Source: Labilithrix sp.
GTDB lineage: Bacteria > Myxococcota_A > Polyangia > Polyangiales > Polyangiaceae
NCBI GenBank assembly: GCA_019637105.1
Contig: JAHBWF010000053.1
Span: 1 to 44,623, forward strand
DNA: 44,623 nucleotides
Reading direction: 5' to 3'
Shown here: positions 1,394-30,136 of the stretch, in pieces
How positions within the stretch are numbered: position 1 is the first letter of the stretch
Layout of the letters: every line of letters begins with the position of its first letter
The notes under the pieces: model-generated
What the model saw: the letters and a program-made list of their open reading frames with translations, nothing else
What the model was told of the DNA's origin: nothing
The model's database searches: none
Program-made: the position numbers and the translations under genes

Positions 1394-3070
<1,677 letters not shown>

Positions 3071-3076
3071 TCGGCG

Positions 3077-3991
3077 ATGCCGTCTCTCAAGACGATTCGT
3101 AAGCGGATCACGAGCGTCAAGGCGACGCAGAAGATCACGCGCGCGATGAAGATGGTCGCGGGCGCCCGCCTCAACCGCGCCCAGTCGCGGATCACGGCGC
3201 TCCGCCCGTACGCCTTGAAGGTCCACGAGGTGCTCGAGGACGTCGCGGCGGCGATGAAGGAGCGGCAAGCCGACGCCGAGTTCAGCGCGCAGGAGAGCGT
3301 CGACGCGCTCCACCCGCTGCTCACGCGCCGCGCCGAGAAGAACGTCCTCTTCATCGTCATGTCCGGCGACCGCGGGCTCTGCGGCGCGTTCAACACGAAC
3401 GTGAACAAGGCCGCCGAGCGCGCGTGGAAGGAGAAGCAGGCGGAGGGCGCCGAGGTGACCTTCGCCACCGCGGGCCGCAAGGGCCGCGAGTACCTCGCGC
3501 GCCGCAAGGGCGTCATCGCGAAGGACTTCCCTCGCCTGATGGACGGCCTCGACATCTCCAAGGCGCGCACGGTCGGCAACTACGTCACCGCGAAGTTCAA
3601 GCGCGGGGAGGTCGACGCGGTCTACATCGTCTACAACGAGTTCAAGAGCGCGATGACGCAGAAGACGACGGTGGAGCCCCTCCTCCCGCCGCCGGAGCGC
3701 CCCGCGCCGGTGAAGGAGACGGGCCTCGCCCCGACGTTCGGCTTCGAGCCGAACGAGCGCGTCGTGCTCGAGCGCCTCGTCCCGATGTACGTCGAGATCT
3801 CGATCTACCGCGCGCTCCTCGAGACGCAGGCGGGCTTCTTCGGCGCGCAGATGACGGCGATGGACTCCGCCACGCGCAACGCGAAGGACATGATCGCGCG
3901 CCTCTCGCTCCAGTACAACCGAGCGCGGCAGGCGGCGATCACCAAGGAGCTGATGGAGATCATCGGCGGCGCCGAGGCGCTCAAGGACTGA
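3077..3991 (+). CDS. atpG: ATP synthase F1 subunit gamma
   Basis: Central rotor shaft of F1. The N-terminus ([27 protein letters not shown]) and C-terminus ([39 protein letters not shown]) are near-consensus for AtpG, as is the [13 protein letters not shown] motif. At 304 residues it is slightly longer than typical because of a Pro-rich insertion ([13 protein letters not shown]) in the middle. It starts six bases after atpA. It is the last gene of the operon here: the next gene, 18 bases away, is on the opposite strand, so atpD (beta) and atpC (epsilon) are not in their usual place. Confidence 0.97.
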
Positions 3992-12443: not shown

Positions 12444-13073
12444 ATGAAGACCCGTCTTTTCCTCGCGTCCGCCCTCGTCCTCTCCCTCGCGGCCACCGCC
12501 TGCGGCGGAGAGAAGAAGCCCGCCGAGTCGCCGGAGAGCACCGCCGGCATCACCGAGACCTCGGCGCAGGAGGACATGCCTCCGCCCCCGGCGAAGGAGG
12601 GTGACGCGCCCGCGACCCCCGCGGCCGAAGGCGAGGCCGCCGGAGCCGCCGGCGGCGTGATCAAGCTCGCGGCGATGAAGATCGTCCCCGTCAAGAAGGG
12701 CGGCAAGGACAAGCCGATCGAGCTCAAGGAGGACGGCACGGTCTCGATCGACGGCAAGCCCGCCGCCACCATCAAGGGCGACTCCGTCGACTCGTCGGGC
12801 GGCACCTCGATGGTCACCGTCGGCGTCGACGGCAGCCTCGTCGGCAACGGCGTGAGCCCCGGCTACAAGTTCGAGGGCGACGAGCTCGTGCACGAGAACG
12901 GCACGAAGCTCTCCGTCGACGACGAGGGGACGATCTCGCTGACCAAGGACGGAAAGACCGAGCCCTTCGCGAAGGCCGAGGGCGGCGCGTCCGCCAAGCG
13001 CGCCGCGCTGATCGCCGCCGTCCTGTGGATGACGGTGCCCGCGAAGACGACGGCGGCGAAGCCGAAGAAGTAA
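12444..13073 (+). CDS. Small secreted lipoprotein of unknown function
   Basis: 209 residues. A signal peptide with lipobox LAATAC (Cys at 20) predicts lipid anchoring. Next comes an acidic, Pro/Ala-rich linker (about 22-72), then a beta-rich region with repeated short strands (ELKEDGTVSIDGKPAATIKG, VGVDGSLVGNG, ISLTKDGKTEPF) and a Lys/Ala tail (PAKTTAAKPKK). The strand-turn repeats resemble a small beta-sheet domain, but I do not recognise the family. There is no clear Shine-Dalgarno sequence and a promoter -10 lies right against the start, so the mRNA may be leaderless. It stands alone, convergent with the complex I-like operon. Confidence 0.85.
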   Translation: MKTRLFLASALVLSLAATACGGEKKPAESPESTAGITETSAQEDMPPPPAKEGDAPATPAAEGEAAGAAGGVIKLAAMKIVPVKKGGKDKPIELKEDGTVSIDGKPAATIKGDSVDSSGGTSMVTVGVDGSLVGNGVSPGYKFEGDELVHENGTKLSVDDEGTISLTKDGKTEPFAKAEGGASAKRAALIAAVLWMTVPAKTTAAKPKK

Positions 13074-13105: not shown

Positions 13106-15250
13106 TCAATCCTCGGCGAGCCACGCGAGCTCCGCGTGGGGCCCCGAGAGACCGCGCTGCGCGACCTGGTCGGGGCCCGGCGGGCTCACGGCGTTGGCCA
13201 GGTCGCGCACGGTGCCGGTCGTCGCCGCGAGGATCGGCGCCGGCCAGAGGCCGAGGATCACGACGAGGAGGACGAGCGGCGCGATGCTCGTCCACTCGCG
13301 CCCCGTGAGGTCGGGGAACCTCCCGCCGAACGGCTCGAGGAGCTGGTCCCTCTCCCACTCGGGATCGAGCCGGCCGAACGCGACGCGAGAGATCACGGAG
13401 AGGTGCGCCGCCGCGACGACGACGAGCGCGATCGCGGCGACGACCGCGAGCGGCGCGTAGCTCGAGAGCACGCCGAGCAACGCGAGGACGGGGCCCCACG
13501 CGCCGGCGAGCCCGAGGACGCCGGCCTGCGCGAGGCCGGCCACCGCGAGCGCCGTCGCCCAGCCGGGGATCTGCGAGGCGACGCCGCCGAGCCGCGTCAC
13601 GTCGGTCGTGCGCGCGCGCTCGTGGACGGCGGACGCGACGAGGAGGAAGGCGCCGCACGCGAGCGCGCGCGTCGCGCCGACGACGATCGCGCCGGAGAGC
13701 CCTTGCGGCGTGAGCGAGCCCGCGCCGAGCAGGACGAAGCCCGCCTGGGTCGTGGTCGCGCACGCCGCCATGCGCCGGAGGTCCGGCTCGCCCAGCGCGG
13801 AGAGCGCACCGTACGCCGCGGCGATCGCCCCGAGCGCGACGACCACCCCCGAGGCCCAGCGCATCCCCTCCGGCAGCACCGCGCACCCCACGCGGAGGAA
13901 CGCGCAGACGCCTATCGTGGGGAGCGCCGACGCGACGAGGATCCCCGCCGCCGGCGGCGCCTCGACGAGCACGTCGGAGAGCCACCCGTGCGCCGGGAAC
14001 GCCGCGAGGAAAAACAGCGACGCAGCGAGGACCAACACGAAGCACACCTTCACGTGCGCTCCGCCGAGCAAGGTCGCGTCCTTCGCGGTCAAGGCCACGC
14101 GCGAGAGCTCCGGCAGGCTGAACGTCGTCGTCACCCGCGTGCCGTCGACGAGGAAGGTCGGATCCGCCTGCCGCGCCGTCGCGAAGATCGCGATCGCGAG
14201 GACGCCGAGCGCGAGGAGCCCCGGCACGGTGAGGCGGAGCGCGGCCGGACGCCGACCCGCGCCGCCCCACGCGCCGACGAGCAGCCCGGCGGCGACGACG
14301 GCGATCGACGAGAAGAAGAGGAAGAGCAGGCCGTCCATCGCCGTGACGGCGCCGATCACCGCGGCGTCGAGCACGAGCAGCCCCGCGTGGTAGCCGGACG
14401 CCCCGCGCGGGACGGTCCGCTCGGGCAGCATCGCCAGGAAGGCGACCGCGCTCGTCACGAACAGCGACGTCGCGGCGATCCCGTCGACGCCGAGGAACAG
14501 CTCCGCCGACAGGCCGCGGATCCACACGACGTGATCGATGAACTGCAAGCCGTCGTTGCCGTCCGCGCGCGAGACGTCCGGAGTGAAGCCCCGGTAGACG
14601 TAGGCCGCGAGCAGCGACTGGATCCCCAGCGCGACGACCGCGACGCGATGAGGCGTACGCTCGTCGCGCCTCCCCGCCGCGCGGGCGACGAACGTCGCCA
14701 GCGCGCCGAGCAGCGGCACGCCGATCATGAGCGACAGGACGTGAGACTCGAACCGCCCGAGGAGCCCCCCGGGCTGGGCGCGCACGCCCATGGCGACCTC
14801 GCCGGATCGTTCGTCCGAGCTCGTGACCACGACGTGGCCGAAGAGCTGGCGCTGGCGAGCCGCGCGCTCGGGGTTCCACGCGACGGTCGCTCGGCGCGAC
14901 GCGCCGGGCGCGATCGTGATCGGCAGGCTCCCGTCGACGACGCGCGCGGAGAGGCTGGGGGGAGCGCGCGGGTCGGACGCGTCGCCGCGCACCGCGATGC
15001 GCGAGACGACGAGCGGCTCCTTGCCGTCGTTGACGATCACGAGCTCGCCGGTGTGGCTCGGAGCCCCGGGCGCCCGCCCCGCGGGGTCGGGCGAGAGCTC
15101 GATCGGGCCGCGCCCGCCCGACTTGGTCTCCAGGCGCACGGTGCCGGCGCGCCTCGCGTCGTCGGCGCGCGCGCCGCCGGCCGCCGTCACGACGAACGCG
15201 ACGGCCAGGAACAGACAGCGGAGCGCGCGCCACGGGGGGCCGAAGGACAT
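13106..15250 (-). CDS. NuoM-like membrane protein with N-terminal extracytoplasmic domain
   Basis: 714 residues. Signal-like helix at 10-27, then a beta-rich domain (about 35-155; SHTGELVIVNDGKEPLVVSR, resembling HYDIN/DUF1573-type Ig folds), then about 14 membrane helices. NuoM landmarks: DGLLFLFFSS at 306-315, FPAHGWLSDVLVEAPPA at 418-434, LRRMAACATTTQAGFVLLG. Aligned by eye with E. coli NuoM as I remember it, the pumping residues Glu144, Lys234 and Lys265 correspond to Ser315, Phe414 and Thr445. It therefore keeps the antiporter-like fold but probably not ion pumping. It starts four bases after the NuoL-like stop. It could instead be a structural or sensory paralogue. The family call is good; the function is unknown. 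Confidence 0.8.
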   Translation of the reverse strand: MSFGPPWRALRCLFLAVAFVVTAAGGARADDARRAGTVRLETKSGGRGPIELSPDPAGRAPGAPSHTGELVIVNDGKEPLVVSRIAVRGDASDPRAPPSLSARVVDGSLPITIAPGASRRATVAWNPERAARQRQLFGHVVVTSSDERSGEVAMGVRAQPGGLLGRFESHVLSLMIGVPLLGALATFVARAAGRRDERTPHRVAVVALGIQSLLAAYVYRGFTPDVSRADGNDGLQFIDHVVWIRGLSAELFLGVDGIAATSLFVTSAVAFLAMLPERTVPRGASGYHAGLLVLDAAVIGAVTAMDGLLFLFFSSIAVVAAGLLVGAWGGAGRRPAALRLTVPGLLALGVLAIAIFATARQADPTFLVDGTRVTTTFSLPELSRVALTAKDATLLGGAHVKVCFVLVLAASLFFLAAFPAHGWLSDVLVEAPPAAGILVASALPTIGVCAFLRVGCAVLPEGMRWASGVVVALGAIAAAYGALSALGEPDLRRMAACATTTQAGFVLLGAGSLTPQGLSGAIVVGATRALACGAFLLVASAVHERARTTDVTRLGGVASQIPGWATALAVAGLAQAGVLGLAGAWGPVLALLGVLSSYAPLAVVAAIALVVVAAAHLSVISRVAFGRLDPEWERDQLLEPFGGRFPDLTGREWTSIAPLVLLVVILGLWPAPILAATTGTVRDLANAVSPPGPDQVAQRGLSGPHAELAWLAED

Positions 15251-15254
15251 GGGG

Positions 15255-17519
15255 TCAGCCGAGGACCAAGGAGGAGAGCACGACCAGGCCGAGCAGGGCC
15301 ACCATCACGAGGAGAGCCACCGTGCGGACGCGCTCGGCCGTCCGCGGCCCATCCAGGTCCAGCTCGACGGCGACGCCGCCGGCCGCGCGCTCGAGCGACG
15401 GATCGATCTTCCCGGAGACGCCGCGCGACAGGCGGCGGATCGCGCGGCCGGCGCGGAGCAGCGCGTCACCGAGAGCCCGAGGGACGTCCTCGATGACGTC
15501 GCGATCCATCGCGCCCACCGAGCGGTGGAGGAAGAGCGCGGCGCGGCCGAGGCCGCTCGCGGTCGCGCGGAGGACGCCGTAGGGGAGCCCGAGCGCGACG
15601 AGCCAGCGCGGCGGCGTGCCCACCGCGCTCGCGCGACGGGCCAGCGCCACGCCCCCCGCCGCCGCCAGGAGCGAGAGGACCACCGCCGCCCCCGCCATCA
15701 GCCGGTGCGCCGGGAGCGCGACAGGACCGACGAGCCGCCGGGCCAGCGGCGCGACGTGACCGCCGAACATCGTCGTCCCGGCGCCGAGCGCGACGCCCCC
15801 GACGAGGGCGATCGCCGTGAGCGCGATGACGAGGATCCCCTGCGCGCGCGACGATCCCGGATCGCGCGCCGTCACGCGAATGAGCGCGTCGTACACCCGG
15901 AACCCCGCCAGCGCGACGAGCACGCACGTGACGACGAGGCTCGCGGCGACGCCCCCGGCGAACACCGCCCACGCGACGCTGCCGGTCGCGGCGGAGCCGA
16001 GCGCCGCGGCGATCGCGAGGATGTACCCGGCCGACGCGCCCGCGCCCGGCAGGAGGCCGGCCGCGCCGGCGCACGCCATCCCGAGCCAGCGCGCGTCGCG
16101 CCTCGCCTCGATCGCGGCGAGGGCGGCGCTCGTCGAGACGATCGCCGACGACGCGAGGACGAGCGAGGCCGCCGGATCGCCCAGCCCCGCCGCGGCGACC
16201 GCCAGCGACGCGAGCGCGGCGAGCACGCCGCGGAGCGCCTGGTGGGCGTCGTCGACGGAGGCCGCGCGCGCCGCGAGGACGACCGCGGAGCCCGCGCCGA
16301 GGAGGACGACGAGCGCGCCGTCCGCCGCCGAAGGATCCACCAGCGGGCCGAGGCGGATCGCGAGGTAGGGCGCCGGGACGGCTTCGAGGACGGACGCGAG
16401 CGCGAGGAGGCCGCGCCGGGTCGCGCTCGCGTGGAGGTGCGACAGCGCCCCGCCGAGCGCGAGGAGGAGGACGACCGCGGACGCGCGGAGGCCGCTGATC
16501 GTGCGCCCCGCCAGCGCCGCGCGCACCGTCGCGGCGCCACCGGTGGGCGCGAGCCGCGGGACCGCGATCTGATCGTCGAGCGCGCGCAGGCTCGCCGTCG
16601 GACCGTACGGGGTGAGCACGTGCGTGCGGCCCGGGACGAGCGCCACGCGCGGCACGATCACGTCGCCCGACGCCGCGCCGCGGTGGACGCGCAGCGTGTA
16701 GACCCCGGGCTCGACCGCGATCGACATCGGTGAGAGCACCCGATCGCCAGGGAGGTCGGCGTCGTCGGACGACACCAGGGCGCCCGCGTGCGTCGTCATC
16801 ACGAGCGTGGCCTTCTCCGGATCCGAGCCGGGCGACGGCGTCGTCACGAGCACGAAGCGCGGAGCTCCGTCGGGATCGTACCCCTCCACGCCGAACGCAC
16901 CGCCGAGCGACCAGAAGAGGAACACGAACCCGACGAGGACGGCGACGTTGCCGGCGAGCGCGGCGACGTTCGGCCCCGCCGCGCCGCCGCGCGAGAGGCC
17001 CCACGTCCCGAGCGAGAGGAGCCCGAGCCCGACGAGGATCGGCGCCAGTCCGTCGCCCACGCAGAGGAGCATGGCGCCGCCGGAGACGAGGCCGGACCAC
17101 GCGAGCCGCGCGTCGGCGTCCGGACGCGACGACCACGACGTCTGGAGCGTGGACGCGCACGCGACGAGGGCGATCACGACCGCGAAGGCGGCGCTCCGCG
17201 GATCGAGCGTGAGGTCGAAGGCGAGATCGAGCTGACCGAGGCGCGCGAGCTCCGCGACGTGCTGGACGAAGACGTGGCCGCGCGGGGCGAGCGCGAGGCG
17301 AACCGCGAGGACCGTCGCGAGCCCGAAGGTCCCGACGGCGCACGCCACGGCGGCGGCGGGGGCGATCGCGTCGCGCGCGCCTCGGCCGGCGCGCCTGTCC
17401 GTCCGCGCCGGACGCGCGAGCAGCGCGGCGATCAGCGCCCAGACGAGCGGGAGGGCGACGAGCCCGACCAGCGTCAGGACCGGTTGGACGATCGCGAGCG
17501 ATCCGGACGCCTCGAACAT
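15255..17519 (-). CDS. NuoL-like membrane protein with inserted beta domain
   Basis: 754 residues from ATG 17519; an in-frame TTG just before it is a less likely start. Features of NuoL: FDLTLDPRSAAFAVVIALVA (101-120, matching the VDGLS region), an AxxGNVAVLVGFVFLFWSLG segment, and a C-terminal amphipathic stretch (DRDVIEDVPRALGDALLRAG) followed by a last membrane helix, like the lateral helix and final helix of NuoL. A beta-rich domain of about 130 residues (207-340; YTLRVHRGAASGDVIVPRV) is inserted between helices, probably outside the cytoplasm. The Glu of the WEGVG motif aligns with Gly166, and the Lys-Asp pair near SKDE is absent. Probably not a proton pump. Middle gene of the H-L-M group. 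Confidence 0.72.
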   Translation of the reverse strand: MFEASGSLAIVQPVLTLVGLVALPLVWALIAALLARPARTDRRAGRGARDAIAPAAAVACAVGTFGLATVLAVRLALAPRGHVFVQHVAELARLGQLDLAFDLTLDPRSAAFAVVIALVACASTLQTSWSSRPDADARLAWSGLVSGGAMLLCVGDGLAPILVGLGLLSLGTWGLSRGGAAGPNVAALAGNVAVLVGFVFLFWSLGGAFGVEGYDPDGAPRFVLVTTPSPGSDPEKATLVMTTHAGALVSSDDADLPGDRVLSPMSIAVEPGVYTLRVHRGAASGDVIVPRVALVPGRTHVLTPYGPTASLRALDDQIAVPRLAPTGGAATVRAALAGRTISGLRASAVVLLLALGGALSHLHASATRRGLLALASVLEAVPAPYLAIRLGPLVDPSAADGALVVLLGAGSAVVLAARAASVDDAHQALRGVLAALASLAVAAAGLGDPAASLVLASSAIVSTSAALAAIEARRDARWLGMACAGAAGLLPGAGASAGYILAIAAALGSAATGSVAWAVFAGGVAASLVVTCVLVALAGFRVYDALIRVTARDPGSSRAQGILVIALTAIALVGGVALGAGTTMFGGHVAPLARRLVGPVALPAHRLMAGAAVVLSLLAAAGGVALARRASAVGTPPRWLVALGLPYGVLRATASGLGRAALFLHRSVGAMDRDVIEDVPRALGDALLRAGRAIRRLSRGVSGKIDPSLERAAGGVAVELDLDGPRTAERVRTVALLVMVALLGLVVLSSLVLG

Positions 17520-17522
17520 CAA

Positions 17523-17757
17523 CCCTCGGACGCGTTCGAGCCGACCGCGCGACGACCGCTCGACAGTCCACCCACGGCAGCGCTGATCGCAAGACGGTAG
17601 GCGGCCATTCGCGTGCGGGGGATGATCCTATCGACGCGGGAGCAAGGCAAGCGACCTCTCGCGACGCCGGGAGCGCCTGGCTCGACCGCCGAGGGCGATC
17701 GCGCGCTCCGGAGCGCGACCGCCGGCGGGGCGCGGGCTCGCGCGCCGGCGGACGACG
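17523..17757. other. Intergenic region of the H-L-M group, with 16-base palindrome
   Basis: 235 bases between the NuoH-like stop and the NuoL-like start. No credible gene was seen. A perfect palindrome CGCGCTCCGGAGCGCG at 17702-17717 lies about 40 bases downstream of the NuoH-like stop and could form a hairpin that reduces read-through or protects the mRNA end. There is no T-run after it. Confidence 0.5.
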
Positions 17758-19602
17758 TCAGAGGAACGGGCTGGCGTGAGGCTCGGGACGGCCGACGGCC
17801 GAGCGGACGCGCGCGGCCATCCGGACGGCGAACAGCGTCCCGAGGGCGACCAGCGTCCCCCCGAACGCCGTCTCGAGCGCGACGCTCGGGACCAGCCGCC
17901 GCGACGCGGCGACGAGCGCGGCGCCGACGAGGAGGGCGGGGACGAGCTTCTTCAGCGCGAGCGTCAGGACCTCACGCGGAGCCAGGCTCGGCGTCACGCG
18001 ACTCGCGCCGAGGAGCGTCGCCGCCGAGAGCCACGTCTTCGCGAGGAACACCGTCGCCGAGAGGAGCAAGAGGCCGCGACCGCGCGCTTCGAGCGCCCCG
18101 GGGAGCTGCCACCCTCCGAGGAACACCGTCACGCCGAGCGCGGCCGCGAGGAGCAGCCCCGCCCGCTCGAGCAACGCGGCGTGCGGGGCTGTCGCCGCGC
18201 GCGCGTCCGCGTCGGGCGCTCTGCCCTCCCCGCCGGGGCGCGCGCGGAGGACGGCGACGACCGCCACGGCGTAGGCCGTCCCGAGCACGGCGCACGACGG
18301 ATGGCGCGCCGCCGCGAACTGCCACGGCGCGCCGCCCTGCAGGCGGACGATCTCCGCGAGCTCGAGCGCGCCCACCTGCCCCACGGCGAGCGCGAGCGCG
18401 CCGCCCATCACGAGGACGGCCGGGAGGAGCCGCGCGAGCGTACGCAAGCTCGACAGCGCCCCGCGCTCCAGCGCCGAGCGCGACCACAGGAGCGCCGACG
18501 CCGAAGCCGCGAGGAGCACCACGCCGTCGGTCTCGCGGCCGACGACGTAGGGCGTGAGGGCGAACGCCGCGACGACCGCGGAGGCGATCGCCGAGAGCGC
18601 GGCGAGGCGCCCGCTCCCGAAGAGCGCGCGCGCGAGCGCCCGCGCCGTCGTCCGCCGAACGAGCGAGGCGATCCGCAGCTCGAGCGCCGCGAGCGACGGC
18701 GGCCCCGGGAGGACGAGGAGGACGAGGAGCGCGAGCGCGAGCCCGACCACGAGGAGCGCCGGCGCGTACTCGGTCGGCACCCGCTCGCCGGCGTACGCGA
18801 TGAGCGAGACGGTCTTCGTCTCCTCCACGCCCGAGTCGGCGTGGCGGATCGTCAGCTCGACGGCGCGCGCGGACGCCGCCAGCACGTCGCCGACGGACAG
18901 GACGTGGACGCCGTCGACGCTCACCAGGACGTCTCCCACCTGGATCCCCGCGCGCTCGGCGAGCGATCCCGCGCTCACCGCCTCGATCGGCAGCCCGCGC
19001 GGCGAGGGCGAGCCCGGCACGATGCCCAAGAACGCGAGGACGCGCCCGCCCTCCGCGGCGCGCGCGTCGAGGACGCTGGCGCGCGCGGACGAGGGGATGA
19101 CGTCGAGCTCGACGCCGCGCATCACGCCGACGAGCGGCGGAGCGCCCTGGTTGTTGGAGGCGAACGCCACCTCGACGTCGCCGCGAAACGTCGCGTGGAC
19201 GGCGTGGTCGCCGCGCCCGCAGACGCGCTCGGCGAGCTCCTCGCGCACGACGAGCTCGAGGCGATCGGGCGCGCTCACCGTGCCCTCGACGTCGATGCTC
19301 ACGCCGCGCACCGGCGGCTCGCCCGCGCGGAAGACCGTGCCCTCGAGCGTGACCTTGCCGGCGCGCCCTTGCGGGAAGCCCGCCCCGTGGACCTCGAGGC
19401 GATCCCCCGGCTCGATCTCACGCGGCGCGAGCTCCGTCACCTCGACGAGCGGCGGGGCGACCTGACGCTCGCAGCCGGCGAGGACGAAGAGGAGCGCCGG
19501 GGCAAGAAGGAACGCGGGGGCACGAAGGCCCCGGGCGGCGAACGCGTGACGAAGGCTCGAGATCGCGCGTACGAACGGTGACAGCACGAGACCTTCGTAC
19601 AT
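17758..19602 (-). CDS. NuoH-like membrane protein fused to lipoprotein signal, IPT-like and PDZ domains
   Basis: 614 residues from ATG 19602 (a GTG at 19587 is a possible alternative). Seen in order: long signal sequence with lipobox LAGC (Cys44); IPT/TIG-like beta domain (about 48-150; EIEPGDRLEVHGAGF); PDZ domain (about 188-266; GSLAERAGIQVGDVLVSVDG); then about eight helices that align with NuoH. The region 385-419 matches Thermus Nqo8 as I remember it without gaps, and FLGGWQLP (494-501) and the PREVLTLALKKLVPALL segment match late NuoH. The conserved Glu of NuoH helix 4 is Val396, and the PFDLPEAE loop is replaced by a Pro/Ala-rich stretch, so quinone chemistry is unlikely. First gene of H-L-M. 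Function unknown. Confidence 0.75.
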   Translation of the reverse strand: MYEGLVLSPFVRAISSLRHAFAARGLRAPAFLLAPALLFVLAGCERQVAPPLVEVTELAPREIEPGDRLEVHGAGFPQGRAGKVTLEGTVFRAGEPPVRGVSIDVEGTVSAPDRLELVVREELAERVCGRGDHAVHATFRGDVEVAFASNNQGAPPLVGVMRGVELDVIPSSARASVLDARAAEGGRVLAFLGIVPGSPSPRGLPIEAVSAGSLAERAGIQVGDVLVSVDGVHVLSVGDVLAASARAVELTIRHADSGVEETKTVSLIAYAGERVPTEYAPALLVVGLALALLVLLVLPGPPSLAALELRIASLVRRTTARALARALFGSGRLAALSAIASAVVAAFALTPYVVGRETDGVVLLAASASALLWSRSALERGALSSLRTLARLLPAVLVMGGALALAVGQVGALELAEIVRLQGGAPWQFAAARHPSCAVLGTAYAVAVVAVLRARPGGEGRAPDADARAATAPHAALLERAGLLLAAALGVTVFLGGWQLPGALEARGRGLLLLSATVFLAKTWLSAATLLGASRVTPSLAPREVLTLALKKLVPALLVGAALVAASRRLVPSVALETAFGGTLVALGTLFAVRMAARVRSAVGRPEPHASPFL

Positions 19603-19791: not shown

Positions 19792-20877
19792 ATGTCGAAC
19801 GTGTATGCGGTGATCATGGCCGGCGGAGCCGGCACTCGCTTCTGGCCCGCCTCCCGCGCCCTGCGTCCGAAGCAGCTCTTGCCGCTCGCGGGCGCCGAGA
19901 ACGAGACGCTCCTCGCGGCCACCGTCCGCCGGCTCTCTCCGCTCGTCGGCGAGGACCGCGTCGTCATCGTCACCGGTGAGCACCTCGCCGAAGCCACGGC
20001 GCGCGCCGTCCCGGGCGTCCCCGCGTCGCAGATCCTCCGCGAGCCGGCGCCGCGCAACACGGCCCCGTGCATCGCCTGGGCGAACGCGACGATCGCGGCG
20101 CTCGACCCCGACGCCGTCGTGATGGTGCTCCCGAGCGATCACTTCATCGGCGACGAGCCCGGCTTCCAGCGCGTGCTCGCGCGCGCCGTCGCGACCGCCG
20201 AGCGCGGGCGCGTCACCACGATCGGCGTCGTCCCGTCGCGGCCCGAGACGGGCTACGGCTACATCGAGGTCGGCGACCCGCTCGATCCGGCGGACGCCGC
20301 CGGCGGGGCGCCGCGAGCGGTGAGACGCTTCGTCGAGAAGCCCGATCGCGCGCGCGCCGAGTCGTTCGTCGCGGCGGGCCCCGCTCGGTACCTGTGGAAC
20401 GCCGGGATGTTCTTCTTCCGCGTACGCGACATGGCGGCGCTGCTCGAGCGCCACCTCCCCGGCGTCGCGAGCGGCGTCGCGCGGATGGGCGACGATCCCG
20501 CGCGCGTGCGCGAGGTCTTCCCGACGCTCGAGAGCGTCTCGATCGATCACGGCGTGATGGAGAAGGCCGAGGGCCTCGCGGTGGTGCCCGGCGACTTCGG
20601 GTGGAACGACGTCGGGAGCTGGCAGTCGGCGTGGGAGCTGGCCGCGCGCGATCCCTCGGGCAACGCCGCCGGCGCGGACGACGTCGTCATCGACGCGAAG
20701 AACAACCTCGTGCGCTCGCTCGGCTCGACCAAGAAGACCGTCGCGCTCGTCGGCGTGAACGACCTCGTCGTCGTCGAGACCGACGACGCGATCCTCGTCA
20801 TCCCCCGCGAGCGCGCCCAGGACGTGCGCCTCGTCGTCGACGCCCTCAAGGAGCGCGGGCGGACGACGTTGATCTGA
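19792..20877 (+). CDS. manC: Mannose-1-phosphate guanylyltransferase
   Basis: Makes GDP-mannose from mannose-1-phosphate and GTP, for polysaccharide and glycan synthesis in the cytoplasm. 361 residues. The nucleotidyltransferase signature GGAGTRFWPASR is at about 11-22, followed by RPKQLLPL, the EPAPRNTAPCIAWA motif, the PSDHFIGDE motif, and the RFVEKPDRARAE and YLWNAGMFFFR motifs, all typical of this family. It lacks the C-terminal phosphomannose isomerase domain found in the bifunctional forms. AGGAG eight bases upstream of the ATG supports the start. No other sugar-nucleotide gene is nearby, so the product pathway cannot be named. Confidence 0.93.
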   Translation: MSNVYAVIMAGGAGTRFWPASRALRPKQLLPLAGAENETLLAATVRRLSPLVGEDRVVIVTGEHLAEATARAVPGVPASQILREPAPRNTAPCIAWANATIAALDPDAVVMVLPSDHFIGDEPGFQRVLARAVATAERGRVTTIGVVPSRPETGYGYIEVGDPLDPADAAGGAPRAVRRFVEKPDRARAESFVAAGPARYLWNAGMFFFRVRDMAALLERHLPGVASGVARMGDDPARVREVFPTLESVSIDHGVMEKAEGLAVVPGDFGWNDVGSWQSAWELAARDPSGNAAGADDVVIDAKNNLVRSLGSTKKTVALVGVNDLVVVETDDAILVIPRERAQDVRLVVDALKERGRTTLI

Positions 20878-22471: not shown

Positions 22472-23503
22472 CTACGCGCCGGCGCCCGTCGGGCGGGCGA
22501 TGAAGCTCGCGCGGAGCGGCTCCGCGTCGCGCGTCGAGAGGCGCGTCGTCCGGCCGAGCTGCGTGCGCGGGGCCCCGAGCTGGAAGCGCGGCACGTGCTC
22601 CGGCGCGGTCACGAGCTCCACCTCGGCCTCGAGCACGCCGCCCGACGCGTGATCGAGCACGGCCGCGAGCGTGGGGTAGAGCGCGCCGCCGGGCGAGAGC
22701 GCGTCGGCCTGCTCTTGCGTCAGCGGCCCGAGCGTGACCCGGAAGCGCCCGCTCCGGTCGGCGACGCTCCGGCCGATCGCCATGTCGACGCCGAGGGTCG
22801 TGTTGCGGACGCCGAGCGTCGCGCGCTGGTCGTGACGCAGCTCGGTGCGGCGGAGGACGAAGCACTCGACGTCGAGCGGGATCCCCGGCAGGAGCCGCGC
22901 GGCGAGCCGCTTGACCGACGCCGTCGTGCGCGCGCGGCGGGAGAGGATGGGCGCGAGGCCGAGGCGCACCAGCGGCGCCAGGGCGCCTTCGTCGGCGACG
23001 CCGCGGGCGTCGACGCCGACGAAGGCGAGCGCGCGCGAGGTGAACGCGTCGGCCGCGTCCGCGCGATGCCCGGCGTGGAGGCGGTTACGCTGCCACGCGC
23101 GAAAGAAGAGGCCGAGCACGCGATGATGGAAGATGTCGTAGAACTCGCGGAGCCCGGGCGTGTCGCTCTGCTCGGACGCGATCACGTCCTCGGTCATGCC
23201 CACGGGCAACGGCGACACGACGCCGAAGAGGCCGAGGAACGTCGTCCGGATGGTCGTGAACGGCGGGTCTTGCGTGGGGAACGGCGGCTTCACCCACTTC
23301 ACGTCGCTCGTGTGGAAGACGAGCTCGGGGTCGTGCTCGAAGCGGATCGCCTCGCTGCGCGCCGGCCCGCCGTGGCCGACGGGGACGGCGTCCGGCCGCA
23401 TGCGCTCGACGAGGTCGACCACCTGGAAGAACTCGAAGCGCTTGCCCTCGCGCTCGAGGAGCCTCCTCAGATGAGCGTCAACGATCCGTTTCGTGCCGGC
23501 CAT
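22472..23503 (-). CDS. tssG: T6SS baseplate protein TssG
   Basis: Baseplate wedge component of the type VI secretion machine, partner of TssF. 343 residues from ATG 23503, near the family norm. It shows the typical N-terminal [15 protein letters not shown] segment, the [18 protein letters not shown] region, [12 protein letters not shown] and the [17 protein letters not shown] motif. Its start lies 37 bases inside tssF. It is followed closely by the TlpA-like gene. No missing segment was noted. Confidence 0.95.
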
Positions 23504-25230
23504 GTGAACCGCTGCCTCGACGGCGAGCCCTCCAGCGTGACGCGCGAGAACGAGTTGATCGAAGCGTACGACGCGAAGAAGCGGTCGAGGACCGCCCCGA
23601 AGAGGAACATGTCGCCGGGACCGACGAAGCCGCTGTCGGCGACGCCCACGTCGATGGCGACGCCGCGGACCGGGGCCCCCCGGTGGAGCTGCTCGGCGGG
23701 CGAGACGCGGACGCTCTGCAGCGCGGCGAGGCGGAGCTCGTTCGCGCGCGCGGCCTGGGCGTCGATGCGCGCGTGGAAGTTGTAGACGTCGAGCGCGGCG
23801 CGGAGGACCCGCACGTCGGTGATCGCGGAGAGGTTCATCGCGGCGTGCGCGACGACGCGCCACTGCTGATCGCGCCCGAACGGGGGCGGGACGTAGGGCG
23901 TCGGCGGCGCGAGGTTCTTGAAGGTGGCCACCGCGGGGGACGACGCCGTCGGGACGCAGATCTCGCCGACGCGGAGCCCGCGCGTGAGCGCGCGGTTCGT
24001 CGCGAGGACGTCGATCGACGCGGCGACGGCGTCCGGCAGCGCGCCGGAGTCGCGCGCGGTGCCGAACGAGACGACGGTGTCCGCGCCGTCTCCCGTGACG
24101 CTCGGGCGGACGTGCGCCGCGTAGAAGGGCCGCTGCGCGGCGCTCCCGACGTACGCGAAATCGTAGAACGACGGCACCTCGCTCCGCGCCCCGCCTTCGC
24201 CGAGCGCCTCGACCCGCGTGATCGTGTAGACCTCGCCGTGCGCGGGCGAGAGCCCGGAGGGGCGCACGAGGTACTCGTTCTTCATCGGGCTGAGCGCGAG
24301 CGGCTCCGCCGTGGTCGAGAAGACGTTCACGACGGGCACGCAGTGGAGCCGGATCGACTCGCGGCCGATGCGGAGGTCGCTCGGCGGGCCGGCGTCCAGG
24401 CGGATCACCACCGAGAAGCGCGTCGCCGCGGGCGCGACCTCGTTGATCCGCCCCAGCCCGACGACGTCGACGAACGCGAACTTCGCCGGCAGCGCGTAGT
24501 ACTCCTCGATGAGCCGCGGCCCCGCGAACGCCGTGGGCGACGCCGGCAGGAGCGCCTCGTCCTCGCCGAAGCCGACGCTCTCGACGGCGCGCCGGCCGAG
24601 CACGATCTCGCGCTCCCCGCCGCCGGCGGCGGGGACGACCAGCGAGACCGACTCCGCGCTCTGGTGGATCCACATCAACGTGCCGAGGCTCGTCCGCGCC
24701 TCGCCGGCGAAATGCAGGCGGACGCGCTCCGCGCCGAGCGGACCGAGCGGCATCGCGAGCGGCATCTTGATGTCGACGCGGAGCTCGTGCTTGCCGCCCG
24801 GGAGCGGCGCGACGCGCACGTCGTCGATCACCCACGGCATCAGCTCGCAGTCCGTCGACGATCGGAAGAGGCACGGCGTGCCGTCGACCTTCACGCTCGC
24901 GAACTCGGTCCCCGCGGGGACGACGAGGCGCTCGCGGAGGACGGTGGGCAGCGGCGTGAGCTCGAGGATCGCGGCCGACGGCATCGGGCGCACCAGATCC
25001 GGGAAGAGCAGCTGCGCGATCCCCTGGATCGCCTGCGGGAGCTCGTCGTCGAGCTTCTGGCGGACGCGCCCGGTGAGGAACGCGACGCCCTCGAGCAGCC
25101 GCTCGACGTCGGGATCGCCGCTGCGCTCCGCGAGCATCGGGGCGAGCGCGGGGTGCGCCTCGGCGAACTCGCGCCCCATCTCGCGGAGGAACGCGAGCTC
25201 GTCCTGGTAGTAGCCGGCGAAATCGCTCAT
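23467..25230 (-). CDS. tssF: T6SS baseplate protein TssF
   Basis: Baseplate wedge component (VasA/ImpG family), forming the TssF2-TssG core. 587 residues, a normal family length. The N-terminus [21 protein letters not shown] is diagnostic, followed by [28 protein letters not shown] and the [13 protein letters not shown] motif. It begins 11 bases after tssE and overlaps tssG, so tssE-F-G are one transcription unit. Confidence 0.96.
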
Positions 25231-25241
25231 CGCGTGCGCGA

Positions 25242-25652
25242 TTACTGTACGCGGACGTTCCGCGCGGAGTCGATGATCGTCTCGAACTTCACCCGCGCGC
25301 GCCGCGCGCCGTTGAGGAGGTCAGCCGTGATCTCGAAGCGGATGGTCAGGTCGCGGCCCGCCTCGGTCGGCAGGTGGACGACGCTCACGTTCAGGAGACG
25401 GGGCTCGTACTTCTTGATGGTGTGGCGGATGCTCTTCAGGACGTCGTCGATCGCGTCCGGACAGGAGTGCACGATGTCGGTCACGCTCACGATCCCGTAG
25501 TCGGACGCGCTCGGCGCCGAGCCCGCGCGCGTCAGGAACATCGCCTGGAGGTGATCGAGGACGGCGGCCTTGGCCTCGTCGTCCGAGACGACGCGGCGCG
25601 GCGCGGCGAGCGCCGGCTCACGGATTCGACGAAGAAGCGAGTGGCCGGCCAC
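25242..25652 (-). CDS. tssE: T6SS baseplate protein TssE (gp25-like)
   Basis: Baseplate component homologous to phage gp25. The C-terminal half is typical: [23 protein letters not shown] and [14 protein letters not shown] chose GTG 25652 (136 residues, beginning [13 protein letters not shown]) because gp25-like proteins usually begin just before the SLLxRI segment. Longer starts at ATG 25694 or 25700 are possible, but the latter would overlap the start codon of the divergent gene. The EPR motif of the gp25 core is present (KYEPRL). Confidence 0.9.
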
Positions 25653-25698
25653 GAAATGAGCGTACCCGGTTCGCGCGCGCTCTGTATGGTGCATTAAC

Positions 25699-26487
25699 AT
25701 GACGCGACATGTGACCAATCCGCAGGATGCGCTCGCGCGCGCGATCGACGCCACGAAGAAGGTCTCCTCCCTCGTGAGGCCCGGCGTCGCGCGAGACGCC
25801 TACGAGGCCGGCGCGTCGGCCGCCAAGACCGCAGGAAACCTGGCCAAGACGGGGGTCCAGCTGGCCGCCACGGCGGCGAACATCGGCGCGGGCAGCTACG
25901 CCGCGTTCGGCGTCCCCGCGGTGCAGATCGTCGGCCAGACGATGGGCGTCGTGGGCGCCACGCTCACCGCGACGCCCGTGGGCATCGGGCTCGCGGTCGT
26001 CAACGCGGCCCACCACCTCAAGGCCGTCTATTCGACGGCTTGGCACATCAAGGCGCTGACGGCGATGCGCGACCACGCGGGCACGTTCCACGGGCGCGTC
26101 GACTGGCGGACGCGCGAGGCGACCCTCCGCACGCTCGACTACACCATCCGGCAGAAGCAGGAGAAGACAGTCCGCCGCAGCGCCTCGGCGACGCCCGGCG
26201 TGGGCGTCCTCGCGACGCTCTACAGCACCGGTCGGGGCGTCTACAAGTCCGCGCGAGGCACCAAGGGCAAGGACCGCACGGAGCACGCCGTCACGCTGGT
26301 CGCGGGCCTGAAGGGGATACCGCTCCAGCTCGGCGGGAGGACGGTCCTGCGCTTCGACTACCTCGCGTTCGGCATCTGCATCGAGCTGCTCGGCGAGGAC
26401 GACTTCTGGTACGCGATGGCCACGGCGGCCCAGAAGGACTGGGACCTGATGGTGCCGGCGCTCCTGCCCAAGCTCAAGTCCACCTGA
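25699..26487 (+). CDS. Unknown protein with Ala/Gly-rich hydrophobic core, inside T6SS cluster
   Basis: 262 residues. The N-terminal part is helical and charged (DALARAIDATKKVSSLVRP), then a long Ala/Gly-rich weakly hydrophobic stretch (about 55-112; VGATLTATPVGIGLAVVNAAHHL) that could insert in membranes, then a basic middle and a C-terminal globular part ending DFWYAMATAAQKDWDLMVP. I do not recognise the family. It is divergent from tssE and convergent with an hcp gene. TATGGT (25685-25690) ends eight bases before the ATG and no ribosome site is seen. An orphan gene next to hcp with a membrane-active-looking region is a candidate effector or effector-associated protein, but this is only inference. 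Confidence 0.75.
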   Translation: MTRHVTNPQDALARAIDATKKVSSLVRPGVARDAYEAGASAAKTAGNLAKTGVQLAATAANIGAGSYAAFGVPAVQIVGQTMGVVGATLTATPVGIGLAVVNAAHHLKAVYSTAWHIKALTAMRDHAGTFHGRVDWRTREATLRTLDYTIRQKQEKTVRRSASATPGVGVLATLYSTGRGVYKSARGTKGKDRTEHAVTLVAGLKGIPLQLGGRTVLRFDYLAFGICIELLGEDDFWYAMATAAQKDWDLMVPALLPKLKST

Positions 26488-26495
26488 GACGACGA

Positions 26496-26527
26496 GGCCG
26501 TCGGAGAGCTTCCGCTCCGCGACGGCC
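26496..26527. terminator. Hairpin between convergent genes
   Basis: GGCCGTCGGAG (26496-26506) pairs with CTCCGCGACGGCC (26515-26527) around an eight-base loop, with a two-base bulge. It sits between the convergent unknown gene and hcp. There is no T-run, but the position and strength suggest a two-way terminator. Confidence 0.5.
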
Positions 26528-26587
26528 GCTTCACTCGTCTGTCCCCGTCGCGCCCGGCTGCTCGCGGCGCGGCCCCTCGCGCGCGCT

Positions 26588-27049
26588 CTACTTCTGCGCG
26601 GCGTCCGTTCGGCTGAAGTGGGCGATCTTGTCGGCCGTCGCGAAGGTCATGTCCGTGTACTGGATGCTCATCTGGATCGACGCCGAGATGCCGCTCCACG
26701 CGTGGCTCATGCTCTCGATCCAGCCGTCCATCAGGTGGACCTCACGGACCTTCTTCCACGACTTCTTGTTCGCCGCGTCGACCTTCTGCTCCAGCTCCGT
26801 GATCTCGACGTCGCCGAGCATCGTGCCGTGATAGAGCCGCTGCTGGAGCTCGGCGACCCACGGCCCGAACGGGAGCGAGATCATCATCGAGCTCTGGTGC
26901 ACCGTGCCCGTCGCGCTGTCCGCCTGCGTGTACGCGGTCGCGGCGAACGCGACGGACTCGAGCCGGAGGAAGTCCTTGTAGCCCTCGGCCTCGACGTCGC
27001 CCTTGACGGTCTGAACTTCGTTCTTGAAGACGATCAACCTGCCTGCCAT
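26588..27049 (-). CDS. hcp: Divergent Hcp-family T6SS tube protein
   Basis: 153 residues from ATG 27049, with GAGGAG eight bases upstream. The layout matches Hcp: an N-terminal strand (GRLIVFKNEVQTVKGDVEAEGYKDFLRLES), a middle PFGPWVAELQQRLYHG helix shared with its neighbour, and a C-terminal strand block (HAWSGISASIQMSIQYTDMTF). It is clearly different from the upstream Hcp but shares the WVAELQQ motif and length. Hcp forms the hexameric tube that carries effectors. It may be a second tube subunit or an effector-specific carrier. Confidence 0.82.
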   Translation of the reverse strand: MAGRLIVFKNEVQTVKGDVEAEGYKDFLRLESVAFAATAYTQADSATGTVHQSSMMISLPFGPWVAELQQRLYHGTMLGDVEITELEQKVDAANKKSWKKVREVHLMDGWIESMSHAWSGISASIQMSIQYTDMTFATADKIAHFSRTDAAQK

Positions 27050-27063
27050 GTGCCTATCTCCTC

Positions 27064-27540
27064 TCAGACCGCGCCGGCGGTGAAGTTGCGGACGGTGAAG
27101 TCTGCAGGTTTCTTGTCGATCTCGAACAGGATCTTCTCGAACATGAAGGTGATGCCCACGAGGCGCGGACCGTCGAAGGTCGACCACGCCTGATCGACGG
27201 AGACGATCACGGGGTTCGTCAGCGTGACCTTCTGCACGACCGTCGGCTCCGCCGTCGACTTCTTGTCGACGGCCTGCGCGAGCTGCGTGAGCACGGCCTG
27301 CTTCAAGTTCTTGCTGATGTAGCAAGCTTGCTGGAGCTCGGCGACCCACGAACCGGCCGAGATCGTCGCCGTCACGGGCGTCTGATCGATGGAGAGACGG
27401 CGGTCCTTGATGCCATAGCCCGTCCTCATGCTCATCGAGCCGAAACTCACCGATTCCACGAGAATGTTGTTCTCGTACCCCTTGAGGGCGCAGTTGCCCT
27501 TGATGCCCTCGATCCCGAGGACGATGCCGTACTCAGCCAT
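27064..27540 (-). CDS. hcp: Hcp-family T6SS tube protein
   Basis: 158 residues. Typical Hcp N-terminus (GIVLGIEGIKGNCALKGYENNILVESVSFG), the WVAELQQACYISKNL segment, and the C-terminal VTLTNPVIVSVDQAW and ITFMFEKILFEID strands. A strong ribosome site (GGGAGAG) precedes the ATG. It lies 14 bases upstream of the second hcp gene, so both are made together. Hcp hexamers stack into the inner tube and bind small effectors. Confidence 0.9.
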   Translation of the reverse strand: MAEYGIVLGIEGIKGNCALKGYENNILVESVSFGSMSMRTGYGIKDRRLSIDQTPVTATISAGSWVAELQQACYISKNLKQAVLTQLAQAVDKKSTAEPTVVQKVTLTNPVIVSVDQAWSTFDGPRLVGITFMFEKILFEIDKKPADFTVRNFTAGAV

Positions 27541-27621
27541 GGACTCTCCCTACCTCTCTCGCAACGGACGACGAATACGAACGCTCATCGTCACTCCAGC
27601 GCGCCTTCCGGTCAATGCGGA

Positions 27622-27639
27622 ACCCCACGATCTTGGGGT
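27622..27639. promoter_or_regulatory. 18-base dyad, candidate operator
   Basis: ACCCCACGATCTTGGGGT is a near-perfect inverted repeat (two mismatched positions). It lies in the 135-base divergent region between hcp (-) and a lipoprotein gene (+). It overlaps a possible -35 (TTGGGG, 27633-27638) of the lipoprotein promoter, whose -10 would be TATCAT at 27657-27662. Confidence 0.45.
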
Positions 27640-27675
27640 CGACGACGCCGCGCCGCTATCATCCAAACCGCGTAC

Positions 27676-28611
27676 ATGGTGCATCGAACGCGGATATCGA
27701 ACGTCGCCGTCCTCGTGCTCGCCGGCGCCGGGCTCTCTCCCCTCACGGCAGGCTGCGCGGCGACCGAGGAGCGCCCGCGCACGGAAGACGACGCGCGGCA
27801 GCTCGCTCCGCTCCCGGCGTGCCTGATCGAGCTCGGCTCCCGGGGGGCGCGCACCGAGGGCGTGATCAAGTCGCTGAGCGAGGAGCAGCTCTGGCGCGCG
27901 GTCTACCCGGCCTATGACGCACGCCGCCGTGCCCTGCCGGCCGACCCGCTGGCCTGCACCGGACGTCCGGTGCTCCGCGACGCCGCGCTGGCGGGCGGCA
28001 CGGCGTCGGCGGCGATCCAGGAGGGTGACACCTCGCTGGGCTCGGGCGGCGATCGCCTCAAGATCGCGTGGCTCCGCTCGCTGACCTTCGAGGACGGCAC
28101 CGCCGGAGGGGCGCTCGCCCTGGTCCGCGCCTACGAGTCGACCGCCGAGGTCTACGCGGTCGGCGCGTTTCGCGGGCGCCCGAGGACGCTCTTCGGCATC
28201 GAGCGGATCGGCCCCGAGGTCGTCGTCGCCGCGCAGGACGACGGCTGCGCGGGGAGGAAGGCCGGGGCGCCCTGCGAGGCGATGGTGACCGTCTTCCGCC
28301 CCCGCTTCGGCGCGCTCGACCCGGTCGCCACCATCGCGCAGGAGCGCGTCTCCTACACGGTCGACGGCGAGCCGGGCGTCCGCGGGCGGACCGAGTACCG
28401 CCTCGCGAGCTCGATCCAGTACCTCGACGGCGGCATCCGGGTGCTCGAGCAGGTGACCGTACGCGACGACCTCGGTCGCGAGGTCCGGCGCGCCGAGCTC
28501 GAACGCGCCTACACGTTCGCGCCCGACGGCAAGATGGTCGTCGACGAGGACTCGCTCTGGTCGCGCGTCGCCGTCGCCGCGCCGAAGACGAAGCCGCCGC
28601 CGTCGAACTGA
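27676..28611 (+). CDS. Lipoprotein of unknown function between hcp and tssC
   Basis: 311 residues from ATG 27676. Signal peptide with lipobox LTAGC (Cys27). The mature part has several Cys (LPACLIELG, PLACTGRP, DDGCAGRKAGAPCE) and a repeating strand pattern that suggests a beta-rich globular domain. I do not recognise the family. It is on the opposite strand to its T6SS neighbours and convergent with tssC. TATCAT (27657-27662) is a good -10 that would give a leader of only a few bases. It could be a T6SS accessory, an immunity protein, or unrelated. Confidence 0.8.
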   Translation: MVHRTRISNVAVLVLAGAGLSPLTAGCAATEERPRTEDDARQLAPLPACLIELGSRGARTEGVIKSLSEEQLWRAVYPAYDARRRALPADPLACTGRPVLRDAALAGGTASAAIQEGDTSLGSGGDRLKIAWLRSLTFEDGTAGGALALVRAYESTAEVYAVGAFRGRPRTLFGIERIGPEVVVAAQDDGCAGRKAGAPCEAMVTVFRPRFGALDPVATIAQERVSYTVDGEPGVRGRTEYRLASSIQYLDGGIRVLEQVTVRDDLGREVRRAELERAYTFAPDGKMVVDEDSLWSRVAVAAPKTKPPPSN

Positions 28612-28650
28612 CGACGCGCGGCGGCCGGTCTCGCGCGGAGCGCGCGTCGC

Positions 28651-30135
28651 TCAGCCCTTGTCGAGCTTCCCGACGAGGCTCAAGGTGAAGCTCGCGCCCA
28701 TGTACTTGAAGTGCGGGCGCACCTTCATGTCGACCTTGTAGAAGCCCGCGTTGCCGGGCACCTCGCTGACGGAGATCTGCGCCTGCCGGAGCGGGCGGAT
28801 CCCGCGGAGGTACGGCGAGACGCCGTCCTGGTCGACCACGTACTGGCCGATCCACTGATTGAGCTCGCTCTCGAGCTCCGCGGCCTCCTTGCTGGTGCCG
28901 ATCTGCTCGCGCTGAATGACCTTGAGGTAGTGCGCGATGCGGCAGGCCACGAAGATGTATGGCAGCTGCGTGCCGAGGCGGTAGTTGAGCTCGGCGGCCT
29001 TGCCCTCCGGCGAGTTGCCGAAGGTCTTCGGACGCTGCGCGCTGTTGGCCGAGAAGAACGCGGCGTTGTCCGAGTCCTTGCGGAACGTGAGGGCGATGAA
29101 GCCCTGCTCCGAGAGCTCGAACTCGCGGCGCTCCGAGAGCATGATCTCGGTCGGCGTCTTGGTCTGGATCTCGCCCATCGCCTGGTACTGGTGGAGCGGG
29201 AGGTTCTCGACCGTGCCGCCCGCCTGCGGGCCGATGATGTTCGGGCACCAGCGGTACTTGGCGAAGCTGTCGGCGAGGCGCGTCGCCATCGCGTACGACG
29301 CGTTGCCCCAGAGGTACTCCTCGTGCTTGTCGACGCAGTCCTCGGCGTAGTTGAAGCGCTTCACCGGGACGGTGTTCTCGCCGTACGGGAGGCGGAGCAA
29401 GAACCGCGGCATGAGGAGGCCGACGTAGCGGGCGTCCTCGGTGTCGCGGAAGCTGTTCCACTTCGTGTACTGCGGGCCCTCGAACAGGGACGCCAGGTCC
29501 TTGAGGTTCGGGAGCGACAGCATGTCCTTCTGGCCGAAGAACGACGCGCCCGCGGCCGCGAAGAACGGCGCGTGCGCCATCGCCGCGACCGACGCGCAGT
29601 TGCGGAGCAGCTCCACGTCCTGCGCGCCCGGACCGAACTCGTAGTTGGAGAACATCGCGCCGTACGGCTTGCCGCCGAACGTGCCGTACTCCGCGGTGTA
29701 CGCGATCTTGTAGAGGCCGCTCTTCGTCACCTCGGGGGCGTCCTCGAAGTCGGCCTGGAGGTCCTCCTTCGAGACGTTGAGCAGCTCGACCTTGATGTTC
29801 TCGCGGAAGTTCGTGCGATCGACGACGAACTTGAGGCCGCGCCACGCCGACTCGAGCTTCTGGAACGCGGGCTGATGGAGGATGGCGTCGAGCTGCTTCG
29901 AGAGCTTCTTGTCGATCTCGACGATCATCCCGTCGACGATCGCCTTGTCGATCTTCGCGCCCTGGTGCGTGGGCGCGAGCAGCTCGGCGATGAACGCGTG
30001 GACGCCCTTGCGAGCGACGTCGTAGCCGTCGTCCGACGGCTTCATCTGCGTCGCGCCGAGGATCTCCTCGAGCAGCGAGCCTTCGGTCGTCTCCGTCGCG
30101 GCGGCGCCGGCCGCCGCCTGGGTCTCTTCGGACAT
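28651..30135 (-). CDS. tssC: T6SS contractile sheath large subunit TssC
   Basis: Forms the contractile sheath with TssB; recycled by ClpV. 494 residues, the usual length. SLLEEILGATQ at the N-terminus, then FQKLESAWRGLKFVVDRT, VSKEDLQADFED, and EYGTFGGKPYGAMFSNYEFG are family hallmarks, as is the RFLLRLPYGENTVPVKRFNYAE segment. It starts one base after tssB ends. No missing segment was noted. Confidence 0.97.
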   Translation of the reverse strand: MSEETQAAAGAAATETTEGSLLEEILGATQMKPSDDGYDVARKGVHAFIAELLAPTHQGAKIDKAIVDGMIVEIDKKLSKQLDAILHQPAFQKLESAWRGLKFVVDRTNFRENIKVELLNVSKEDLQADFEDAPEVTKSGLYKIAYTAEYGTFGGKPYGAMFSNYEFGPGAQDVELLRNCASVAAMAHAPFFAAAGASFFGQKDMLSLPNLKDLASLFEGPQYTKWNSFRDTEDARYVGLLMPRFLLRLPYGENTVPVKRFNYAEDCVDKHEEYLWGNASYAMATRLADSFAKYRWCPNIIGPQAGGTVENLPLHQYQAMGEIQTKTPTEIMLSERREFELSEQGFIALTFRKDSDNAAFFSANSAQRPKTFGNSPEGKAAELNYRLGTQLPYIFVACRIAHYLKVIQREQIGTSKEAAELESELNQWIGQYVVDQDGVSPYLRGIRPLRQAQISVSEVPGNAGFYKVDMKVRPHFKYMGASFTLSLVGKLDKG

Positions 30136-30136
30136 G

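Follow-up and report, generated by a model that had tools for sequence, protein, structure and literature searches.

What becomes of a proton-pumping respiratory enzyme when the residues that move protons are gone and some of its membrane subunits are kept? This question is raised by a Labilithrix sp. contig of 44,623 nucleotides (JAHBWF010000053.1; the whole stretch is referred to hereafter as the window), in which three adjacent genes, here called H, L and M, resemble the complex I genes nuoH, nuoL and nuoM (Table 1). We favour, at a probability of roughly 0.6, the reading that these dead subunits form a lipid-anchored membrane platform that would hold a PDZ-bearing periplasmic assembly. The original prediction, made from the letters of the window, proposed three adjacent genes of complex I origin in H-L-M order; three minus-strand open reading frames and the profile matches below bear this out. 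It also described I, J and K as missing from the nuo order, which is correct but incomplete, as NuoN is missing too.

M matched the NuoM model TIGR01972 with an E value of 3.7e-77 and 260 bits, slightly below the cut-off of 263.8, and its score against the Mrp D model was far lower (74 bits). For the membrane parts, the match of M to PF00361 was the sole single-sequence score above a curated cut-off, those to NuoH, NuoL and NuoM models all lying below. H alone matched PF00146 across residues 478-564 (E 4.4e-5, under the cut-off), and L alone matched the NuoL model NF005141 weakly (E 4.6e-4); no NuoL chain was matched when the single L sequence was compared with the PDB. A profile of 11 H proteins, ten from the genus together with the less degenerate G021, matched solved NuoH chains (E 2.5e-11). 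One built from 14 degenerate L sequences matched NuoL/NdhF chains (E 3.5e-34). By a crude hydropathy count, H, L and M are no poorer in hydrophobic segments than an intact relative, indicating that membrane character is kept, and the C-terminal hydrophobic segment of L is retained. The weak single-sequence scores of H and L could suggest unrelated transporters that merely resemble NuoH, NuoL and NuoM. This we consider ruled out for practical purposes, as the profiles of the degenerate proteins match NuoH and NuoL structures and intermediates tie them to intact subunits. By these matches, H, L and M are homologues of NuoH, NuoL and NuoM of complex I. The trio shares the NuoL/M/N-like family with Mrp antiporters, DabAB and the membrane subunits of hydrogenase-4, but differs from these in having a NuoH-type subunit, in lacking catalytic residues and in a best family match that is not to those subunits.

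Catalytic positions were read against the Escherichia coli enzyme (L097) and the ordinary complex I of the same genome. E144, K234, K265 and E407 of E. coli NuoM, and E144, K229 and K399 of NuoL, are essential Glu and Lys residues, and the acidic loop, E157 and E228 of NuoH are quinone-site positions. At the four NuoM positions, the window M has S, F, T and P, and at E144, K229, K399 and D400 of NuoL, the window L has G, H, Y and I. The window H lacks the DxPEAExE loop, E157 and E228; an acid aligned with E36 is retained, but the predicted loss of essential residues is otherwise borne out in all three proteins. The same pattern was found among relatives. In 24 degenerate M proteins, K234 was never kept, E144 and K265 were each kept once and E407 five times. 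In 24 degenerate L proteins (two of them partial), neither K229 nor K399 was kept in any; E144 was kept in one, D178 in 10 and D400 in seven, and Arg replaced K229 in 9/24 and K399 in 8/24. The trio thus differs from E. coli complex I, whose membrane parts, relative gene order and L C-terminal hydrophobic segment it shares, in lacking the catalytic Glu and Lys residues and the quinone-site loop, and in having extra domains.

These Arg residues, and the number of hydrophobic segments kept, would fit a membrane part that still moves ions through other residues, as an antiporter or a leak. However, M lacks E144 and K234 save for the single E144, most replacements are small or hydrophobic, and identity of the membrane parts drops to 0.26-0.36 at matched divergence (see below). 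Continued ion movement is therefore improbable in our judgement.

The extra domains were found to be inherited. Other genomes of the family have an intact I-J-K-L-M-N operon (or, within the stretch read, its L-M-N part) that encodes a NuoM with the N-terminal domain and a NuoL with the insert seen in the trio; elsewhere, these genomes encode an intact NuoH that shares the lipobox, the N-terminal domain and the PDZ of H. All tested catalytic positions are kept in these extended enzymes (8/8 M and 9/9 L proteins). One genome with an intact extended enzyme, G050, is a single contig of 16,040,666 bases. The view that each subunit gained its domain in a new role must accordingly be rejected, since intact complex I of sister genera has the same domains on the same three subunits; the domains are older than the death of the pump, because intact relatives bear them with catalytic residues in place. 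NuoN (505-513 aa in three operons), J (169 aa) and K (102 aa, one operon) of the intact operons have ordinary lengths, so that the subunits retained in the window are precisely the domain-bearing ones. We read H, L and M as orthologues of NuoH, NuoL and NuoM of a complex I in which all three bear extra domains. The trio has the same domains on H, M and L as the extended enzyme and lacks its catalytic residues and partner subunits; it is set within the complex I family by descent, yet outside its catalytic members, because the catalytic residues fail.

A PDZ-bearing, lipoprotein-type NuoH occurs within an intact complex I in several genera. The genes of this enzyme lie in scattered clusters, among them those of B-C-D; in 5/5 such loci, the 10-14 kb read showed no E, F or G. 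In this respect the intact relatives are like the 11-subunit complex I-like enzymes without NuoEFG, for example that of Desulfitobacterium (PMC11238625), but they differ from these in the extra domains on H, L and M and in the scattered gene clusters, and the lineage of the window differs further in keeping just H, L and M. The nearest non-extended rows by branch length come from other groups, with B-CD-H-I-J-K-L-M-N operons for which E, F and G were not seen (L131, L134 and L136). No description of an intact extended complex I without adjacent E, F and G was found in the literature searched. The ordinary NuoH of the family also has insertions between NuoH segments (L098:7952-9400, L100:3218-5146 and L107:8767-10713).

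The rest of the extended enzyme appears to have been lost in the lineage of the window. One NuoD is present in the genome (G000, 91.5% complete), along with an ordinary complex I divided between two contigs (C269 and C293), which answers the question of nuo genes elsewhere that the original prediction had posed. The genome has one ordinary NuoK and another beside an Mrp-type set (on C327). It yielded no second NuoD and no extended-type NuoK, extended-type I and J not having been separately searched. A NuoM-like C-terminal piece at a contig edge (C190:1-1411, L066) is not close to extended NuoN. At least two NuoD were found in 15/16 genomes with an intact H and in 15/90 with a degenerate H (Fisher p 3e-9), or in 12/83 of the latter after dropping seven cut H proteins; the genomes are non-independent, and a second NuoD is at times that of another enzyme, as with the non-extended second complex I in G024. 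The trio does not look like an old paralogue beside an intact copy, as the H N-terminal domain has a single match at E<=1e-18 in every one of 63 matching genomes from a phylum sample.

This domain is found throughout the order. It was detected in 178/184 genomes of the order at E<=1e-6, although some of the weakest matches may be to the PDZ alone. At E<=1e-18, it was detected in 63/377 genomes of the phylum sample, 60 of them in the order and three in a single family elsewhere in the class; no match at this threshold was seen for 11 of the order's listed genomes. H was read in 111 loci of 110 genomes (L127 and L254 lie on one contig), about one per genus from the E<=1e-6 matches plus further loci. 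All three NuoH motifs are kept in 16 genomes and not in the remaining 95 rows (94 genomes), of which seven H proteins are cut by a contig end, with fewer than 300 membrane-part residues left, and are not fully judged. G043, G017 and G021 are intermediate between intact and degenerate H. An M with the N-terminal domain occurs in at least 55/184 genomes, among the matches listed.

H, L and M lie in the same order on one strand in 20 genomes (M or H being partial in two), as expected if the synteny seen in the window is conserved in other Myxococcota. Nor has the trio disappeared from close relatives, since L is present in 9/13 genomes of the genus, the window's included; in G001, H and M are on separate contigs, and G005 (72% complete) yielded no more than a weak match to the H domain. 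L and M of the degenerate module are fused in one open frame in G059, G073 and G025 (loci L055, L059 and L063), and four further Polyangium genomes (G097-G100) have M frames of 1305-1341 aa, a length that would allow such a fusion, in which the L part was not identified. A homologue of H in family f3 (L291:9425-11074) has a membrane part that weakly matches NrsF, of the anti-sigma factor type (E 8.8e-4, below the cut-off).

Did the pump die once? In a tree of M, 15 degenerate rows form one clade (100/100) within the extended enzymes, and the Polyangium-type M (G025) groups with other extended ones with weak support (86/84). In a tree of H, Polyangium H is nested among intact proteins (98/91) and that of G024 stands apart on a long branch, its second NuoH being a non-extended row. 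A single degenerate clade was rejected by the H tree (approximately unbiased test, p 0.0124) and not by the M tree (p 0.322). A tree of the H N-terminal domain gave a Dollo count of five losses, with L231 taken as intact, and also separated Polyangium, G043 and two other groups; this tree came from a short search, with SH-aLRT (approximate likelihood ratio) support only, and has many weak forks. Two or more independent origins of the dead state are likely on these trees, but not proven.

H, L and M are under purifying selection. The ratio of non-synonymous to synonymous substitution rates (dN/dS) was 0.20-0.50 for whole genes and 0.15-0.64 for single segments, as estimated by the NG86 method from few pairs with GC-rich codons. 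For the same pairs within the genus, dN/dS of H was 0.16-0.39 in the N-terminal part and 0.32-0.56 in the membrane part. In L, it was 0.15-0.20 in the insert, 0.28-0.46 in the two membrane halves and 0.42-0.64 in the C-terminal stretch. Between intact enzymes, periplasmic and membrane identities were 0.42 and 0.77 for H, 0.37 and 0.69 for L, and 0.43 and 0.75 for M, the periplasmic value being the higher in none of the pairs (0/36, 0/36 and 0/28, respectively). Between degenerate proteins, the corresponding values were 0.45 and 0.33, 0.38 and 0.30, and 0.44 and 0.42, with the periplasmic value higher in 228/231, 114/120 and 65/120 pairs; these pairs are non-independent and degenerate membrane parts align less surely. 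At a matched periplasmic identity of 0.30-0.50, membrane identity of the degenerate proteins was 0.27 for H, 0.26 for L and 0.36 for M. From the identity and dN/dS patterns, the outer side is the part still constrained in H and L, and both parts are in M.

The original prediction of a retained role rather than decay is upheld by this selection. A slowly decaying relic without function would account for the missing catalytic residues, the fast evolution of L and the apparent deletion of L and M in place in G009, G031 and G165. It accounts poorly for H open reading frames in 94 degenerate genomes, for the presence of H across the order, for dN/dS in the ranges given above and for extra domains whose conservation is similar to that in the intact enzyme. 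We think decay a slim prospect.

What the outer parts are is clearest for H. Its PDZ domain is well supported (E 8.1e-12, with a Pfam PDZ match in 18/18 members) and is nearest to bacterial periplasmic PDZ domains, such as those of DegP/DegQ and RseP-type proteins; H differs from these proteins in having no visible protease domain and in the fusion of its PDZ to a NuoH-type membrane part. The binding-loop glycine is present in 15/15 intact and 87/93 degenerate rows, the other six being gaps (L231, an intact protein, is scored as degenerate here). H has a signal peptide with a lipobox Cys, which is invariant in 18/18 members, and the lipobox pattern occurs in 95/111 rows; H is thus probably lipidated. 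The description of the H domain as IPT-like plus PDZ stands for the PDZ only, as no IPT/TIG family was matched at E<=0.1 by any of 18 H N-terminal domains. Similarly, the Ig-like (immunoglobulin-like) label given to the M domain is sustained to the extent of a weak likeness to Ig-type families. The L insert matched no family above the cut-off. A PEGA-like nature, guessed by eye, was unconfirmed: 2/17 members match DUF4397, and the insert of the window matched nothing better than E 0.1. The extra domains of H, L and M are presumably periplasmic, given the known topology of NuoH, NuoL and NuoM.

Homologous to complex I subunits, stripped of their proton-transfer and quinone-site residues, under selection and repeatedly retained with their hydrophobic segments and inherited domains, H, L and M would most likely work as follows. 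The three membrane parts would act as anchors that hold each other through contacts inherited from complex I, so that H, L and M probably form a complex, to which H would add a lipid anchor. On the outer side, the H PDZ, the L insert and the Ig-like domain of M may make up one periplasmic platform, in which the PDZ, with its binding-loop glycine, would capture C-terminal peptides of envelope proteins. More tentatively, and at slightly less than even odds, the platform was first an add-on of an unusual complex I and outlived the pump, the domain-bearing subunits being kept as a dead anchor more than once and across the order.

Several observations weigh against such a platform. G009, G011, G031 and G165 keep H but have no L or M nearby, nor any Ig-bearing M genome-wide at E<=1e-60; L and M seem to have been lost in place in G009, G031 and G165, because manC and atpG-atpA still flank H. 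No Ig-bearing M was found in families f3, f5, f6 and f10 among the matches listed (at least ~345 bits). A platform of three parts is thus not needed everywhere. Within M, the membrane part and the extra domain are equally constrained in the degenerate identity comparison, and dN/dS of the membrane part is below that of the extra domain in 4/5 pairs. The caveats on the identity pairs given above count on the same side.

A serious rival, although one we hold to be unlikely, would assign the trio to a working enzyme, whether the ordinary complex I, some other respiratory complex or ATP synthase, as an accessory or regulatory part whose dead subunits bind that enzyme and tie it to the envelope. 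NuoD was found in 174/184 genomes of the order, so the ordinary complex I is nearly always there to be docked, and the sequence read around the trio or H includes atpG in 12/111 loci, among them the window, where it is ~9 kb from M. Such synteny is absent from most loci read, though many stretches are short, and the places of M and L in complex I are, by our reasoning, already taken up by the ordinary subunits.

Table 1. Features of the window and loci compared with it (positions in nucleotides of the window unless a locus is given).
Feature	Position or locus	Strand	Remarks
H, NuoH-derived	17758..19602	-	614 aa; LAG|C lipoprotein-type signal, N-terminal domain, PDZ, NuoH-like membrane part without quinone-site acidic loop
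H N-terminal domain and PDZ (residues 44-275)	18778..19473	-	binding loop FLGI; in degenerate relatives better conserved than membrane part
L, NuoL-derived	15255..17519	-	754 aa; catalytic residues gone, hydrophobic segments kept
L insert (residues ~202-349)	16473..16916	-	at position of NuoL loop between transmembrane segments 6 and 7; common to intact enzyme
M, NuoM-derived	13106..15250	-	714 aa; S, F, T, P at E144, K234, K265, E407 positions
M N-terminal domain (residues 34-168)	14747..15151	-	weakly Ig-like; common to intact enzyme
Mannose-1-phosphate guanylyltransferase-like gene (manC)	19792..20877	+	divergent from H; context
atpA and atpG (ATP synthase alpha, gamma)	1394..3991	+	context; just past M end of trio in several relatives
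Intact extended complex I	L053, L099, L147 (G034); L051, L106, L148, L149 (G050); H also L258-L260		scattered gene clusters
H without neighbouring L and M	L104, L105, L252, L297		manC and atpG-atpA still flank H in three of four

Among the neighbours, manC lies beside or near H in 28/111 loci, and neither manC nor atpG was present in any intact H or L-M locus read. Several relatives carry, close to their trio or H, the small lipoprotein-like gene that lies convergent with M in the window (12444-13073) and has no Pfam match. Type VI secretion genes occupy positions 23467-30637 of the window (TssF and VipB by Pfam), and a small gene at 30137-30637 resembles, by eye, the small sheath protein.

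No description of a system like the dead H-L-M trio was found in the literature searched, which did not include most subscription papers, making this weak evidence of absence; passage searches within PMC11238625 and PMC4859585 found no matching text.

Annotation by similarity to NuoM alone would credit these genomes with one extra proton pump. The trio instead shows functions of complex I coming apart in nature, the pump having been lost, probably more than once, and the outer side of three subunits retained. It makes testable whether complex I can serve the envelope in a way that does not depend on proton pumping, and how such a large enzyme of the membrane becomes a scaffold. Taken together, our observations suggest that, in this myxobacterial order, a respiratory enzyme was converted to an envelope scaffold or receptor anchored in the membrane; if the platform is real, such a conversion would have taken place.

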